Source of the DNA: a virus
IMG/VR virus record: IMGVR_UViG_3300050127_000013
Coordinates: 1 to 61,141 of that record
Reading direction: 5' to 3' (one strand)
DNA: 61,141 nucleotides
Of the stretch, positions 4,912 to 18,343 are shown in pieces. Both the position numbers and the translations under genes were made by a program. The notes beneath the pieces were generated by a model. That model worked only from the letters and a program-made list of their open reading frames with translations. It made no database searches and was not told the origin of the DNA. Every line of letters begins with the position of its first letter. Positions within the stretch are counted from its first letter, which is position 1.

Positions 4912-5129
4912 GATTTTTTCCGCGCGCTAGGGTCCATACCACCCAGGCGCTCGATAACGCCCAGCGCATCGATGATCGCCATGTCATAAATATCTTCGTC
5001 GAATTCGTCCCCGACCAGCGCCTTTTCATCGCCAGCCTTGCACTTCAATTCGCTAATTTCCGCCCATACGGCGTCAAGAACATCCATCATGGCACCCTCG
5101 CATTGATCCTGCATGTCTGCATACTTCAC
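4908..5129 (-). CDS. Passenger gene: acidic helical protein, 73 aa
   Basis: A strongly acidic protein (VGDEFDEDIYDMAIIDALGV) with two predicted helices and an MDPSARKKS tail. It overlaps the upstream and downstream genes by 4 bp each. Its charge is opposite to that of the basic last gene of the operon, but any interaction is speculation. No family is recognised. Confidence 0.7.
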   Translation of the reverse strand: MKYADMQDQCEGAMMDVLDAVWAEISELKCKAGDEKALVGDEFDEDIYDMAIIDALGVIERLGGMDPSARKKS

Positions 5130-5308
5130 GCGCCTACTCCGAATTGGCCGTTATCGCGCGCCACAGCCTCGCAGCCGTGACCATCACACTCCGGACATTC
5201 CCCGATATCAGTCTCAAGCGATGGGTCATCCGGCTGCGGATCGTGGCGCATAAGGCGCCCATCAATGCAGCGAGTTGACCGTCCTAGCGTTCTATCGCGC
5301 CTGCTCAT
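5126..5308 (-). CDS. Passenger gene: zinc-knuckle-like protein, 60 aa
   Basis: The N-terminal part is Arg-rich (MSRRDRTLGRSTRC) and the C-terminal part has CPECDGHGCEAV, resembling half of a DnaJ-type or phage zinc knuckle. It starts 9 bp after the previous gene and overlaps the next by 4 bp. Function unknown. Confidence 0.65.
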   Translation of the reverse strand: MSRRDRTLGRSTRCIDGRLMRHDPQPDDPSLETDIGECPECDGHGCEAVARDNGQFGVGA

Positions 5309-5317
5309 GGTGCCGCC

Positions 5318-5584
5318 CTAGCCCGTAAAAGTACGGTGCTGGTGATTTTCGTGGCGAAAGTCCTCGCCACATACAGCGCAGCACCCGCTTTTCAGCCCTA
5401 CCGTTGTCCCAGCGACGTGCGTGTGCCCGGCGGACAAAACCAGCCCAACCTTCTCGTAAGCCGCTTTCACGCGACCCATGATGATCTGGTCGTCGCTCGG
5501 GATTGATTGACGTATTGCCGCACCCAATTCGCCGCGCGCTTCTTCAAGTATTTTCATCTGCCAAGGCTCCATCGGGCGCGTCAT
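5318..5584 (-). CDS. Passenger gene: CxxC/His protein, 88 aa
   Basis: Its ATG overlaps the transposase stop (ATGA), so it is translated from the same mRNA. The first half is helical (MKILEEARGELGAAIRQSI). The second half has GCCAVCGEDFRHENHQH, a likely Cys2His2-type metal site. No family is recognised. Confidence 0.7.
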   Translation of the reverse strand: MTRPMEPWQMKILEEARGELGAAIRQSIPSDDQIIMGRVKAAYEKVGLVLSAGHTHVAGTTVGLKSGCCAVCGEDFRHENHQHRTFTG

Positions 5585-6507
5585 TGCGTCAACTCCTTGT
5601 AAGTGATCCGTTTTCCAGCAACACCAGAGACGAAGCTGTCCAGGCGCTGCATCGTGTGGCGGTTCACGTTCCCATCGTTAAGACGGAAGGCAAACTCATC
5701 GACGTAACGGCCAATGTGCTTCTTGCTAGCGTGGTGGTAGACGCCGATCAGGCCGCGTTTCAGAACGGCGAACACGCTTTCGATGCCGTTTGTCGTGACA
5801 CCATCGCGGACATATTCGCCAGCGCCGTGATTAATCGCCTCGTGCTTGAAGAACAAGCCGTTCAAGCCCTTGTAGGCGGACGCTTCGTCAGTATGGAGCG
5901 TAGAGCCCGCAACCACGCGGCGATGAATGGCCGTGTGGATTGTCGCCATGTCCGCGTTCTCAATCGGCATTGCCAGCGTCTTACCGGTCGCGCGTTCCCG
6001 CATTCCAAGAACCGCGCTCTTGCCGACCGAACCACGCCCAGCCTTGAGCTTTTTGCCTTCGTGCTTGTTCTTCTCGATTCCGCCCACGTAGGTTTCGTCA
6101 ATTTCGATGACGCCTTGGAGCGTTGCCAGATCATCGCCACACGCCTCGCGCAGGCGATGCAGGACAAACCAAGCCGACTTTTGGGTGATACCGATTTCCT
6201 TCGCGAGTTGCAGGCTGGAAATGCCCTTGCGGGCCGTGACCAACAAATACATCGCGTAAACCCATTTATGCAGCGGAACGTGCGAACGCTCAAAAATCGT
6301 GGCCGTGCGAACCGTGAAGTCTTCCTTGCACTGGTTGCATAGGTAGAAGCCCTCCTTGCCCTTCCTGGCCGTCACGCGCTCACCCAGGCCACAGCACGGG
6401 CACTTCGGGCCTTCCGGCCAAAGCCGGGCTTCGAGATACTTGCGCGCCGCTTCCTGGTCTGGGAACATCTTGAACAACTCAAAGGTGGAAATAGTGCTTT
6501 TCGACAT
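5581..6507 (-). CDS. IS1595-family transposase (element A), 308 aa
   Basis: The start is the ATG at 6507 (MSKSTISTFELFKMFPDQEA), with GAGG upstream. The N-terminal zinc ribbon (CPCCGLGERV ... YLCNQCKEDF) is followed by a helix-turn-helix (LQLAKEIGITQKSAWFVLHR). Then comes the ISXO2-like DDE domain: EIDETYVGG, HTDEASAY and GIESVFAVLKRG. The last fits the IS1595 pattern in which the third catalytic residue may be N or E. The gene appears intact. It lies first in the passenger operon. About 45 bp separate the start from the right terminal repeat, which may carry the promoter. Confidence 0.95.
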   Translation of the reverse strand: MSKSTISTFELFKMFPDQEAARKYLEARLWPEGPKCPCCGLGERVTARKGKEGFYLCNQCKEDFTVRTATIFERSHVPLHKWVYAMYLLVTARKGISSLQLAKEIGITQKSAWFVLHRLREACGDDLATLQGVIEIDETYVGGIEKNKHEGKKLKAGRGSVGKSAVLGMRERATGKTLAMPIENADMATIHTAIHRRVVAGSTLHTDEASAYKGLNGLFFKHEAINHGAGEYVRDGVTTNGIESVFAVLKRGLIGVYHHASKKHIGRYVDEFAFRLNDGNVNRHTMQRLDSFVSGVAGKRITYKELTQ

Positions 6508-6551
6508 GACCAATCCCTCAATTTCTGTCGGAAATCTAGTCAAAAATCACG

Positions 6552-16200: not shown

Positions 16201-16623
16201 ATGGCCAACACCGAATTAGAGGAACTTCTGCAACAAATCAGGCGGCTTTTCGCTGCTGAATACGCGCGCGGCGACCGCGACGCAATCACTAGAATCATGC
16301 AAGCCGCCCAAGGCGATGCAGTTGCAGAGACTATCAAAAAAACTCCGTTGCGGCGAGTGCGGGTGACGCAGGCGGCTCGACGAGCTCCGAATGGAGCCGT
16401 TGATAGTCTTATCAGGCGCGTTCTTACCGAGCGTCGAATGAAAGGCGCTGGTGCCCTTGAAATCCATGAATCGGCGGTCACGCCGGCGGAAAAGTCGGTT
16501 TCTTATTCCGGTATTCGATTTGCGCTCGACCGAGGCCGTAAGGCCGGTGCGTATAAAAACAAGGAAGGAAAGTGGTTTCTGGTCGAGAGTAGAGCGGCAG
16601 AGCATCAGCGCGCCGCTGAATGA
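16201..16623 (+). CDS. Hypothetical basic protein, 140 aa (cargo of element B)
   Basis: It begins MANTELEELLQQIRRLFAAE, a helical N-terminus. A basic centre (RRVRVTQAARRAPNG) is followed by SYSGIRFALDRGRKAGAYKN, whose pattern (helix, then Gly-x-Tyr and WFLVE strand) resembles a small winged helix. Function unknown. It lies between a hairpin operator candidate and a perfect palindrome that begins at its stop codon. Confidence 0.7.
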   Translation: MANTELEELLQQIRRLFAAEYARGDRDAITRIMQAAQGDAVAETIKKTPLRRVRVTQAARRAPNGAVDSLIRRVLTERRMKGAGALEIHESAVTPAEKSVSYSGIRFALDRGRKAGAYKNKEGKWFLVESRAAEHQRAAE

Positions 16624-16645: not shown

Positions 16646-16651
16646 ACCGGC

Positions 16652-16698
16652 GCCGCTCGGTACGGGTTCGGCTGTGGACCGAATACCGACCGAGCGGC
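16652..16698. repeat. Long imperfect hairpin before the tRNA-like gene
   Basis: GCCGCTCGGT (16652-16661) pairs with ACCGAGCGGC (16689-16698). An inner stem (GTTCGG with CCGAAT) extends it almost to the centre. There is no T-run after it, so it is unlikely to be a simple terminator. It may be a cruciform, a processing signal for the tRNA, or a transposon structure. Confidence 0.7.
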
Positions 16699-16706
16699 GT
16701 CACCAC

Positions 16707-16804
16707 GCGGTAGTGGCGAAATTGGCAGACGCGCCCGGTTTGGAACCGGGTGGGAGCCCCTTCAACGGACAAGCCCCTTATCGGTTCGAATCCGGTCTAC
16801 CGCA
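16707..16804 (+). tRNA. tRNA-like gene, leucine-type body with UGG (proline) anticodon
   Basis: All arms fold. The acceptor is GCGGTAG/CTACCGC with discriminator A at 16804. The D arm is GCG/CGC with GG in the loop and the T arm is ATCGG-TTCGAAT-CCGGT. The anticodon stem CCCGG/CCGGG encloses the loop TTTGGAA, so the anticodon is TGG (16741-16743). A 29-nt variable arm makes it class II. The D arm (TGGCGAAATTGGCAGACGCG) is typical of tRNA-Leu, whereas UGG reads proline codons. CCA is not encoded. It may be charged with leucine, because bacterial LeuRS largely ignores the anticodon, or it may be a decayed tRNA. Confidence 0.8.
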
Positions 16805-16848: not shown

Positions 16849-17781
16849 CTAGTTCCCTACTGGCACGCGATACATCAACCGCTTGCCTTCTGCGGCTTTG
16901 ATCGCTTCAACGGTGCGCTCACCGTCTGTTACTTTCCGCAAGTCCCATCGGAACGAAAATTCGTTCAAGTAACGGTCCATGTGCTTTTCGCTGATGTGAT
17001 GGAAACTACCCATCACACCGCGCTTGAACAGACCGAAAAACCCTTCGACCGTGTTGGTCGTCGCGTCGCCGCGCGCGTACTCATACGCGCTGTGATTGAC
17101 GACCTCATGCCCACCGGCGAACTCGCTGCCGAGCCCGAAATAGGCGTGATTTTCGTCCGTCATCAGTCGTGCGCTGGGATCGACGTGCGCCCGAACCGCC
17201 GCCTTCAATGTTGGCGCGGTCAAATCGGGGATGACGTGCGCACGCGCCCTACCGCCGCGCTCCACAAGCCCGACCACGCGGGTTTTCGTGGGAACGGGAC
17301 GTTCGCGGCTGGCACCGGCAACGCGCTTGCTAGCGCGCTTGCGGGGCTTGCCGCCGACCCATGTTTCGTCCGCCTCGACAGTGCCGCCGCCGACGCCTAA
17401 GAGGCCCTTCAATGGCTCGCGGGCCATCGCGTGCCTAATCCGGTGCGCCAAATGCCATGCGCTTCGGTAGCTCCCTAGGCCAAGCTGGCGCTGTAATTGG
17501 AGGGCACTGACGCCCTTTTTCGCCGAACACAGGATCGAGAAAGCCATCAGCCACGTTCGGATCGGGAGGTGGCTATCCTCCAAAATCGTGTTGATGGTCG
17601 CCGTAAACTGGCCATCGCAGCCCGAACACTTATACAGCCCGACGCGGTGAGCCTTGCCCCGTAGCTTCGTGCTTTCGACCGATCCGCAATGGGGGCAAAC
17701 CCGACCATTCGGCCAGCGGGTTTTCTCGAAATACTCGCGGGCTTGATCCTCGGTGAGGCTTGAAATCTCTGACAGGTTCAT
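16849..17781 (-). CDS. IS1595-family transposase (element B), 310 aa
   Basis: The start is taken as the ATG at 17781 (MNLSEISSLTEDQAREYFEK), with GGGAG upstream; an ATG at 17796 is possible. A zinc ribbon (CPHCGSVEST ... YKCSGCDGQF) and helix-turn-helix (LQLQRQLGLGSYRSAWHLAH) precede the DDE domain: VEADETWVGGKPRKR, MTDENHAYFG and TNTVEGFFGLFKRGVMG. It is intact and related to, but clearly different from, the element A enzyme. Its promoter region holds the 12-bp palindrome GAACTATAGTTC (17802-17813). Confidence 0.95.
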   Translation of the reverse strand: MNLSEISSLTEDQAREYFEKTRWPNGRVCPHCGSVESTKLRGKAHRVGLYKCSGCDGQFTATINTILEDSHLPIRTWLMAFSILCSAKKGVSALQLQRQLGLGSYRSAWHLAHRIRHAMAREPLKGLLGVGGGTVEADETWVGGKPRKRASKRVAGASRERPVPTKTRVVGLVERGGRARAHVIPDLTAPTLKAAVRAHVDPSARLMTDENHAYFGLGSEFAGGHEVVNHSAYEYARGDATTNTVEGFFGLFKRGVMGSFHHISEKHMDRYLNEFSFRWDLRKVTDGERTVEAIKAAEGKRLMYRVPVGN

Positions 17782-17822
17782 GTTACCGGCTCCCATGACC
17801 GGAACTATAGTTCATGCGGTTT

Positions 17823-17846
17823 CGGTTTGTCAAGTGCATAATTCCG
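17823..17846 (-). repeat. Right terminal inverted repeat of element B
   Basis: On the plus strand it ends GTGCATAATTCCG. It pairs with 14821-14844 at 23 of 24 positions. Confidence 0.8.
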
Positions 17847-18106: not shown

Positions 18107-18343
18107 ATGAATGCCAATGAAATCAACGCCGTGACGCATGTGACGGATGTTTTCGTTATCGGCGCCACGCGCGCGCGTGCGCGCCTAACGGGGATACCGA
18201 AAGAACCCGTCACATGCGTCACACGCATTGTGGCGGTCGTCATCGCTTCTCTGACTATAATGGGCGCCCTAGTTACGATAGCCCCGCGCTTGCAAACTTT
18301 GGCGGGGACGGCGCCGACCGCCACTAATCAGCCGGGTCATTGA
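18107..18343 (+). CDS. Possible single-span membrane protein, 78 aa
   Basis: ATG to TGA encodes a soluble start (MNANEINAVTHVTDVFVIGA), one hydrophobic helix (IVAVVIASLTIMGALVTIAP) and a short tail. The ribosome binding site is weak, and the region also forms a 16-bp inverted repeat, so coding is uncertain. Confidence 0.4.
   Translation: MNANEINAVTHVTDVFVIGATRARARLTGIPKEPVTCVTRIVAVVIASLTIMGALVTIAPRLQTLAGTAPTATNQPGH
18131..18146 (+). repeat. 16-bp inverted repeat, left arm
   Basis: GTGACGCATGTGACGG, the exact reverse complement of 18207-18222, with a GC-rich 60-bp spacer. It could form a large hairpin or bind a dimeric protein. Confidence 0.8.
18207..18222 (-). repeat. 16-bp inverted repeat, right arm
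   Basis: CCGTCACATGCGTCAC, exact partner of 18131-18146. Confidence 0.8.

Follow-up and report, generated by a model that had tools for sequence, protein, structure and literature searches.

The window, the whole stretch of 61,141 bases that makes up an IMG/VR virus record, carries terminase, portal, head and RecT genes as well as two IS1595-type transposase genes, and its sole match in Rfam is a tRNA (RF00005) at 16707-16804. The second transposase gene and the features around the tRNA are located as follows:

5581-6543, minus strand: second IS1595-type transposase, belonging to another subfamily
16201-16623, plus strand: gene for a 140-aa protein with N-terminal helices and a C-terminal winged helix (AlphaFold2, Foldseek)
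16651-16699, plus strand: strong hairpin with arms at 16651-16671 and 16679-16699, 81% complementary over 21 nt
16707-16804, plus strand: Leu-body class II tRNA with anticodon UGG at 16741-16743 (RF00005, family model R1, LeuRS determinants)
16751-16779, plus strand: variable region of the tRNA, 29 nt
16804, plus strand: discriminator A73 of the tRNA; CCA is not encoded
16849-17796, minus strand: IS1595/ISXO2-type DDE transposase with zinc ribbon (PF12762, E 9.5e-41; PF12760, E 4.3e-15)
17804-17833, minus strand: promoter-like TTGACA-18-TATAGT upstream of the transposase (11/12 in a consensus scan whose matches were no more numerous than in shuffles)

The Rfam model matched exactly 16707-16804 of the plus strand, scoring 52.7 bits (gathering score 29), thereby confirming the class II tRNA with paired stems that had been described in a first-pass annotation; family model R1 gave 86.5 bits. 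ARAGORN called no tRNA in the window; the length of the variable arm is the presumed cause. The acceptor stem (GCGGTAG/CTACCGC) begins with a G1-C72 pair, the D arm reads TGGCGAAATTGGCAGACGCG, the anticodon arm is CCCGG-TTTGGAA-CCGGG, and the T arm is ATCGG-TTCGAAT-CCGGT. Every stem is paired, with a single G-U in the T stem, and the acceptor branch is of the 7/5 type. The leucine-type body and the proline anticodon claimed in the same annotation were both borne out: A73, A14, A15-U48, G18G19 and A20a are present, comprising all of the bacterial LeuRS determinants checked, and the loop TTTGGAA yields UGG, flanked by U33 and A37 and starting with U34. In the minimum-energy fold of the unmodified single strand, the anticodon arm pairs with the T arm rather than forming a perfect cloverleaf; support for the cloverleaf comes from the covariance model and from comparative covariation.

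The gene for the 140-aa protein stops 83 nt short of the tRNA. Pfam has no family for this protein, AlphaFold2 gave pLDDT values of 91-98 over the winged helix, and Foldseek returned winged-helix matches with probability up to 1.00 and no E below 0.02, suggesting that this coiled-coil/winged-helix protein is probably a regulator. A profile of the protein found it upstream of seven tRNAs with an NGG anticodon, including that of the window (five of the seven had been used to build the profile), and also upstream of one Leu-body UGC tRNA (L377), with no match upstream of any normal Leu tRNA; several other upstream proteins resemble it below significance. Between the gene and the tRNA, the hairpin ends 7 nt ahead of tRNA nucleotide 1, and z was -4.7 for the upstream 60 nt and -3.6 for hairpin and tRNA together. 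At other loci of the tRNA family, hairpins end 5-16 nt ahead of the tRNA; the mean upstream z was -2.35 for NGG loci versus -0.84 and -0.52 for controls (p = 2e-4), and z was below -2 in 46% of NGG loci, indicating that the hairpin is common but not universal. Winged-helix gene, hairpin, tRNA and an IS1595-type transposase on the 3′ side thus constitute a loose module; hairpin, winged-helix gene and transposase linkage were all absent from the first-pass annotation. At L377/L384 (1480-1830), two tandem Leu-body UGC (Ala) tRNAs, each preceded by a hairpin, start 25 nt downstream of a coiled-coil/winged-helix gene, representing the module with a different sense anticodon.

A search of 52 loci from portal-protein relatives of the window phage found other tRNAs in 8 of 50 records (Rfam), and family model R1 had no match of at least 60 bits in the 851 kb of these relatives. 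The idea that the Leu-body UGG tRNA belongs to the core phage lineage was thus rejected, and given its absence from the portal-protein relatives, the gene is counted as an acquisition by the window phage or its near kin. Known phage records contained no DNA match to the tRNA region, and an exact motif search of viral contigs also gave no match.

Relatives of the tRNA were collected by a pattern combining a leucine D arm (AGACRC), YT at positions 32-33, an NGG anticodon, R37 and a T loop (GGTTCRANTCC), applied to viral contigs and to one genome per species from 84,980 species, with pairing of the acceptor, anticodon and T stems as a filter. After removal of duplicates, 35 distinct tRNAs were obtained, including that of the window: 33 with UGG, one with AGG (L083), one with GGG (L280) and none with CGG. 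The other carriers are 8-9 viral contigs and ~27 bacterial genome contigs, assigned by record titles to Acidobacteriota, Planctomycetota, Alphaproteobacteria, Myxococcota, Chloroflexota, Gammaproteobacteria and others; many of these are MAG contigs, among which mis-binned phage contigs are possible, and a few are from isolates (Roseobacter, Sphingomonas, Ferruginivarius). Each of 11 carrier genomes has exactly one stem-checked copy, accompanied in the seven genomes examined further by several other Leu-model tRNAs. Of 31 decided cases, 28 placed the family member nearer to others of the family than to normal tRNA-Leu and 3 did not, and in all seven hosts the family tRNA was nearer to other members than to the host's own tRNA-Leu. 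The 29-nt variable arm, flagged earlier as abnormal, is indeed long for tRNA-Leu, whose variable regions spanned 11-17 nt in the loci examined, yet it is common in the family: over a third of members have 27-35 nt, and the arm of one transposase-linked member (L314) reaches ~45 nt. A37 was found in 24 of 32 members, in place of the G37 of all 11 tRNA-Leu(UAG) and all Leu(CUN) tRNAs seen. Two transposase-linked members (L294 and L345) have C33, for which weaker decoding is expected.

Alignment of 29 members gave standard pairs in 97.8% of pair cells and double changes at 22 of 24 pairs; pairing percentages for the acceptor, anticodon and T stems are inflated by the survey filter. In the variable-arm stem, which was unselected, 89.7% of cells were paired and each of the four pairs showed double changes; such covariation is not attributable to decay. 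The pseudogene reading was accordingly rejected on the intact stems and double changes, and decay, raised in the first-pass annotation, gains no support from the distant homologues, which share the mismatch across phyla, covary, and retain UGG, AGG or GGG in place of the normal Leu anticodon that would have marked the window copy as a relic. Derivation from tRNA-Leu(UAG) by an A35G change, through decay or by chance, would fit the sporadic distribution and the absence from close phage relatives, but it is very improbable: most members also differ from tRNA-Leu(UAG) at position 37, and A35G changes in CAG, GAG and UAG would predict similar numbers of CGG, GGG and UGG, whereas UGG is far more common than CGG, GGG or AGG.

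In Escherichia coli, the LeuRS determinants are A73, A15-U48, G18G19 and A20a, and the anticodon is not among them (PMC9976931). Within the pattern set (n = 36), A73 and U48 were each present in 35 members and A14 and A15 in nearly all, with A20a fixed by the pattern; the anticodon was NGG in all 36, by construction, rather than a Leu anticodon (NAG or YAA, with A35). The proline acceptor pair C1-G72 occurred in only 3 of 36. A normal tRNA-Pro has C1-G72, G37 and a class I variable loop; the window tRNA has the G35 and G36 of tRNA-Pro and none of these three features. With LeuRS determinants retained and no shift to C1-G72, charging with leucine is the best inference for the family on sequence grounds.

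Codon use in the window constrains what such charging could do. CCA codons in 18 conserved ORFs were aligned with Pro in 69% and with Leu in 1.8% of cases, as were other Pro codons alike, and CCA occurs at prolines conserved in relatives, ruling out a global recoding of CCA to Leu. Recoding confined to the transposase was also rejected, since only 9 of 167 Pro residues fell in columns where Leu was at least as common, nearly all of them variable. Purging of CCA by the phage was dismissed as well, CCA not being depleted: over identical aligned columns, its share of Pro codons was 16.7% in the window versus 11.4% in relatives lacking the tRNA, and it was higher than in all 16 such relatives listed, although the genomes differ in third-position GC and the comparisons lack independence. 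Part of the CCA shift is attributable to GC3 differences, as some of the GCA and ACA controls increase as well. The retention of CCA at conserved prolines and its greater frequency speak against leucine being inserted efficiently while structural genes are expressed. Given neither recoding nor avoidance, any leucine insertion would be weak, early, conditional or aimed elsewhere; otherwise the tRNA would be Pro-charged or non-decoding. The first of these two alternatives is an ordinary helper tRNA, charged with proline by ProRS through G35/G36 and A73, that would boost CCA decoding by the phage. The raised CCA share and the CCA codons kept at conserved Pro sites are what such a helper would predict, but it is an improbable reading in view of the rarity of C1-G72, the replacement of the tRNA-Pro G37 by A in most members, the class II variable arm and A15-U48, both leucine features, and the contribution of GC3 to the CCA shift.

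The window transposase is convergent with the tRNA and lies on its 3′ side. Its acidic and zinc-ribbon residues are invariant across 17 aligned sequences, and the conserved block around it consists of the single gene plus a promoter region of ~45 bp, a similar promoter sequence recurring upstream of transposase relatives. An IS1595-type transposase was located within 2 kb of 19 of the 35 NGG tRNAs, on the 3′ side in 18 of the 19 and in mixed orientation, versus 1 of 66 control Leu-body tRNAs (Fisher 4e-10; 1 of 42 with other anticodons and 0 of 24 normal Leu tRNAs), a strong comparison with imperfect matching since control loci differ in flank length. The association was also recovered in a transposase-first search, free of anticodon bias, in which a transposase alignment yielded 80 viral loci that were scanned for tRNAs with ARAGORN, a script and family model R1. 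Nine class II Leu-like tRNAs were found within ~1.6 kb, eight of them with a Pro-box anticodon (six UGG and two AGG) and the ninth with GGA (L332); this count sets apart a tRNA-rich locus (L304) and L369, where a Leu-like class II tRNA with a UUA anticodon (ochre stop) lies at 5124-5205 on the minus strand, ~0.7 kb from an IS1595-type transposase.

Both orientations are scattered over the transposase tree, indicating that the adjacency of tRNA and transposase arose repeatedly. Neither repeat search nor local alignment revealed a convincing pair of terminal inverted repeats at ~19 loci, which speaks against a classical insertion sequence with a passenger tRNA. At two pairs of loci (L193/L271 and L231/L253), homology ends 2-41 nt past the tRNA and the transposase is present in only one locus of each pair in the sequence compared, with no clean empty site among them. 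The linkage may reflect only repeated insertion of IS1595-type transposases 3′ of these tRNAs with no functional relation, an account that is compatible with any reading of the tRNA and has somewhat less than an even chance of being correct. Such insertion would explain the 16 of 35 tRNAs that have no transposase, the homology breaks in the two pairs, and the mixed orientation scattered over the tree; it leaves unexplained the near absence of such transposases beside other Leu-body tRNAs and the missing terminal inverted repeats around tRNA-transposase pairs. Family model R1 detected no relic tRNA beside the second transposase of the window. Between the transposase next to the tRNA and the terminase genes there is a 44-nt inverted repeat (18131-18222; 80% complementary, 4-nt loop). 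In four loci with a same-strand arrangement (L230, L241, L264 and L291), a conserved small ORF of ~50 aa with the motif GPKPxxLKIxGxWxxAVKKSLxKKKPADGWPK directly follows the transposase stop.

The best explanation, which we hold at even odds, is that the tRNA belongs to a functional, selected family of Leu-body, Pro-box tRNAs that would be charged by LeuRS and serve on mobile DNA as missense suppressors inserting leucine at CCA and possibly other CCN codons, probably at a low or conditional level. By this mechanism, whose steps of charging, decoding and regulation we infer from sequence, the host LeuRS would charge the Leu-body UGG tRNA with leucine, and the product would compete against host tRNA-Pro for CCA codons and perhaps for the rest of the CCN box. 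The hairpin leader and the winged-helix protein may limit tRNA expression, and the occasional C33 would also lower output; a low or conditional output is proposed since CCA serves as an ordinary proline codon in the phage. The module is not confined to the Pro box, as UGC in L377 and GGA in L332 illustrate. A broader role, in which a mobile module spreads a conditional Pro-to-Leu suppressor among phages and many bacterial phyla as controlled mistranslation in phage-host or element-host conflict, is tentative and rather unlikely.

A non-decoding tRNA-like RNA, acting as a decoy for an anticodon-loop nuclease or RNA-binding protein, as a regulator, or as an RNA or DNA signal for the transposase, with the GG of the loop as a recognition motif, is doubtful. 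It would account for the strong upstream hairpin, the longest variable arms, the two members with C33, the transposase linkage, and a CCA usage that is neither recoded nor avoided. Against it, the family retains the LeuRS determinants, a 7-nt loop, a purine at 37 and GG at 35-36 (the counts for U33 and purine 37 being partly forced by the pattern), while nucleotide 34 varies among U, A and G and the anticodon has moved to other sense boxes in L377 and L332, both of which decoding would predict.

The suppressor reading can be compared with known mismatched tRNAs. The tRNA-ProX/ProRSx system of Streptomyces and Kitasatospora combines a tRNA-Pro body with an Ala, Asn or Thr anticodon, A33/A34 and an adjacent ProRSx gene, and its mistranslation has been demonstrated in E. 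coli (PMC11415595). Like tRNA-ProX, the present family occurs in bacteria, has body and anticodon of different amino acids, is kept in genomes and is predicted to mistranslate, and a few members have an odd nucleotide 33 and A34; unlike it, the family is also viral and pairs a class II Leu body with a Pro anticodon (with U33/U34 in the window), and what adjoins the tRNA is a transposase and a winged-helix gene, no dedicated synthetase gene being seen beside it. Nematode nev-tRNAs are class II tRNAs with Gly or Ile anticodons that are charged with leucine in vitro and cause no detectable mistranslation in vivo (PMC4300185); they share the class II body and non-Leu anticodon, with leucine charging demonstrated for them and predicted for the phage family, but are nuclear genes, in contrast to phage and bacterial genes with a Pro-box anticodon and mobile-element linkage. 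Allo-tRNAs, which are rare bacterial or metagenomic class II tRNAs with an 8/4 or 9/3 acceptor branch and serine identity (PMC7609411), and other metagenomic hybrid-identity tRNAs likewise have an anticodon at odds with the body; the window tRNA differs from allo-tRNAs in its 7/5 branch and A73 leucine identity. The neighboring transposase has the zinc ribbon and DDE domain (Pfam) of the IS1595 (ISXO2) family and departs from insertion sequences of that family in its tRNA linkage and the terminal inverted repeats not found. By analogy, the family would work like known mistranslating tRNAs while fully sharing the defining features of none. A literature search, largely without subscription papers, found no report of tRNA-Leu(UGG) or of IS1595-tRNA linkage.

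Few lineages are known to have naturally mismatched tRNAs, and a phage-borne family that is widespread, covaries and combines leucine identity with proline anticodons provides a defined, testable gene set for asking whether mistranslation is selected. If these tRNAs are charged with leucine, pipelines in which the anticodon decides the name annotate them wrongly as tRNA-Pro, or miss them, as ARAGORN did here. The recurrent association with a single transposase family is a further pattern that calls for explanation. Rare relatives across phyla, often with a transposase, point to a selected and little-studied route to altered protein synthesis rather than to a dead gene.

Large random genome samples also contained Leu bodies with other foreign anticodons; the Pro box therefore characterizes the transposase-linked set without being the sole case. 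Leu-like class II tRNAs with an Asn GUU anticodon, U1-A72 and G73 occur in many viral contigs (L087, L093, L097, L126, L143, L152 and others), mostly with a variable arm of 28-31 nt, and further viral ones have Gln UUG. These phage tRNAs share the D arm of the present family, with G73 throughout and U1-A72 in the Asn and most of the Gln forms. Since G73 and U1-A72 match Asn/Gln identity, their bodies look like conversions to that identity, judged by these nucleotides; the Pro-anticodon family shows no comparable shift toward C1-G72, a contrast that counts in favor of its charging with leucine. In a related phage of the window's portal family (L056, 1403-1495, minus strand, on the contig of L037), a Ser-type class II body with G73 is combined with the glycine anticodon UCC and represents another type of mismatch between body and anticodon. 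In an alphaproteobacterial genome of 1.7 Mb (G510, contig C1, ~1.515-1.521 Mb), six or more Leu-body tRNAs (L378, L385 and L388-L391) are arrayed in tandem; their anticodons are CGC (Ala) and GCC (Gly), and their variable arms measure 29-30 nt.
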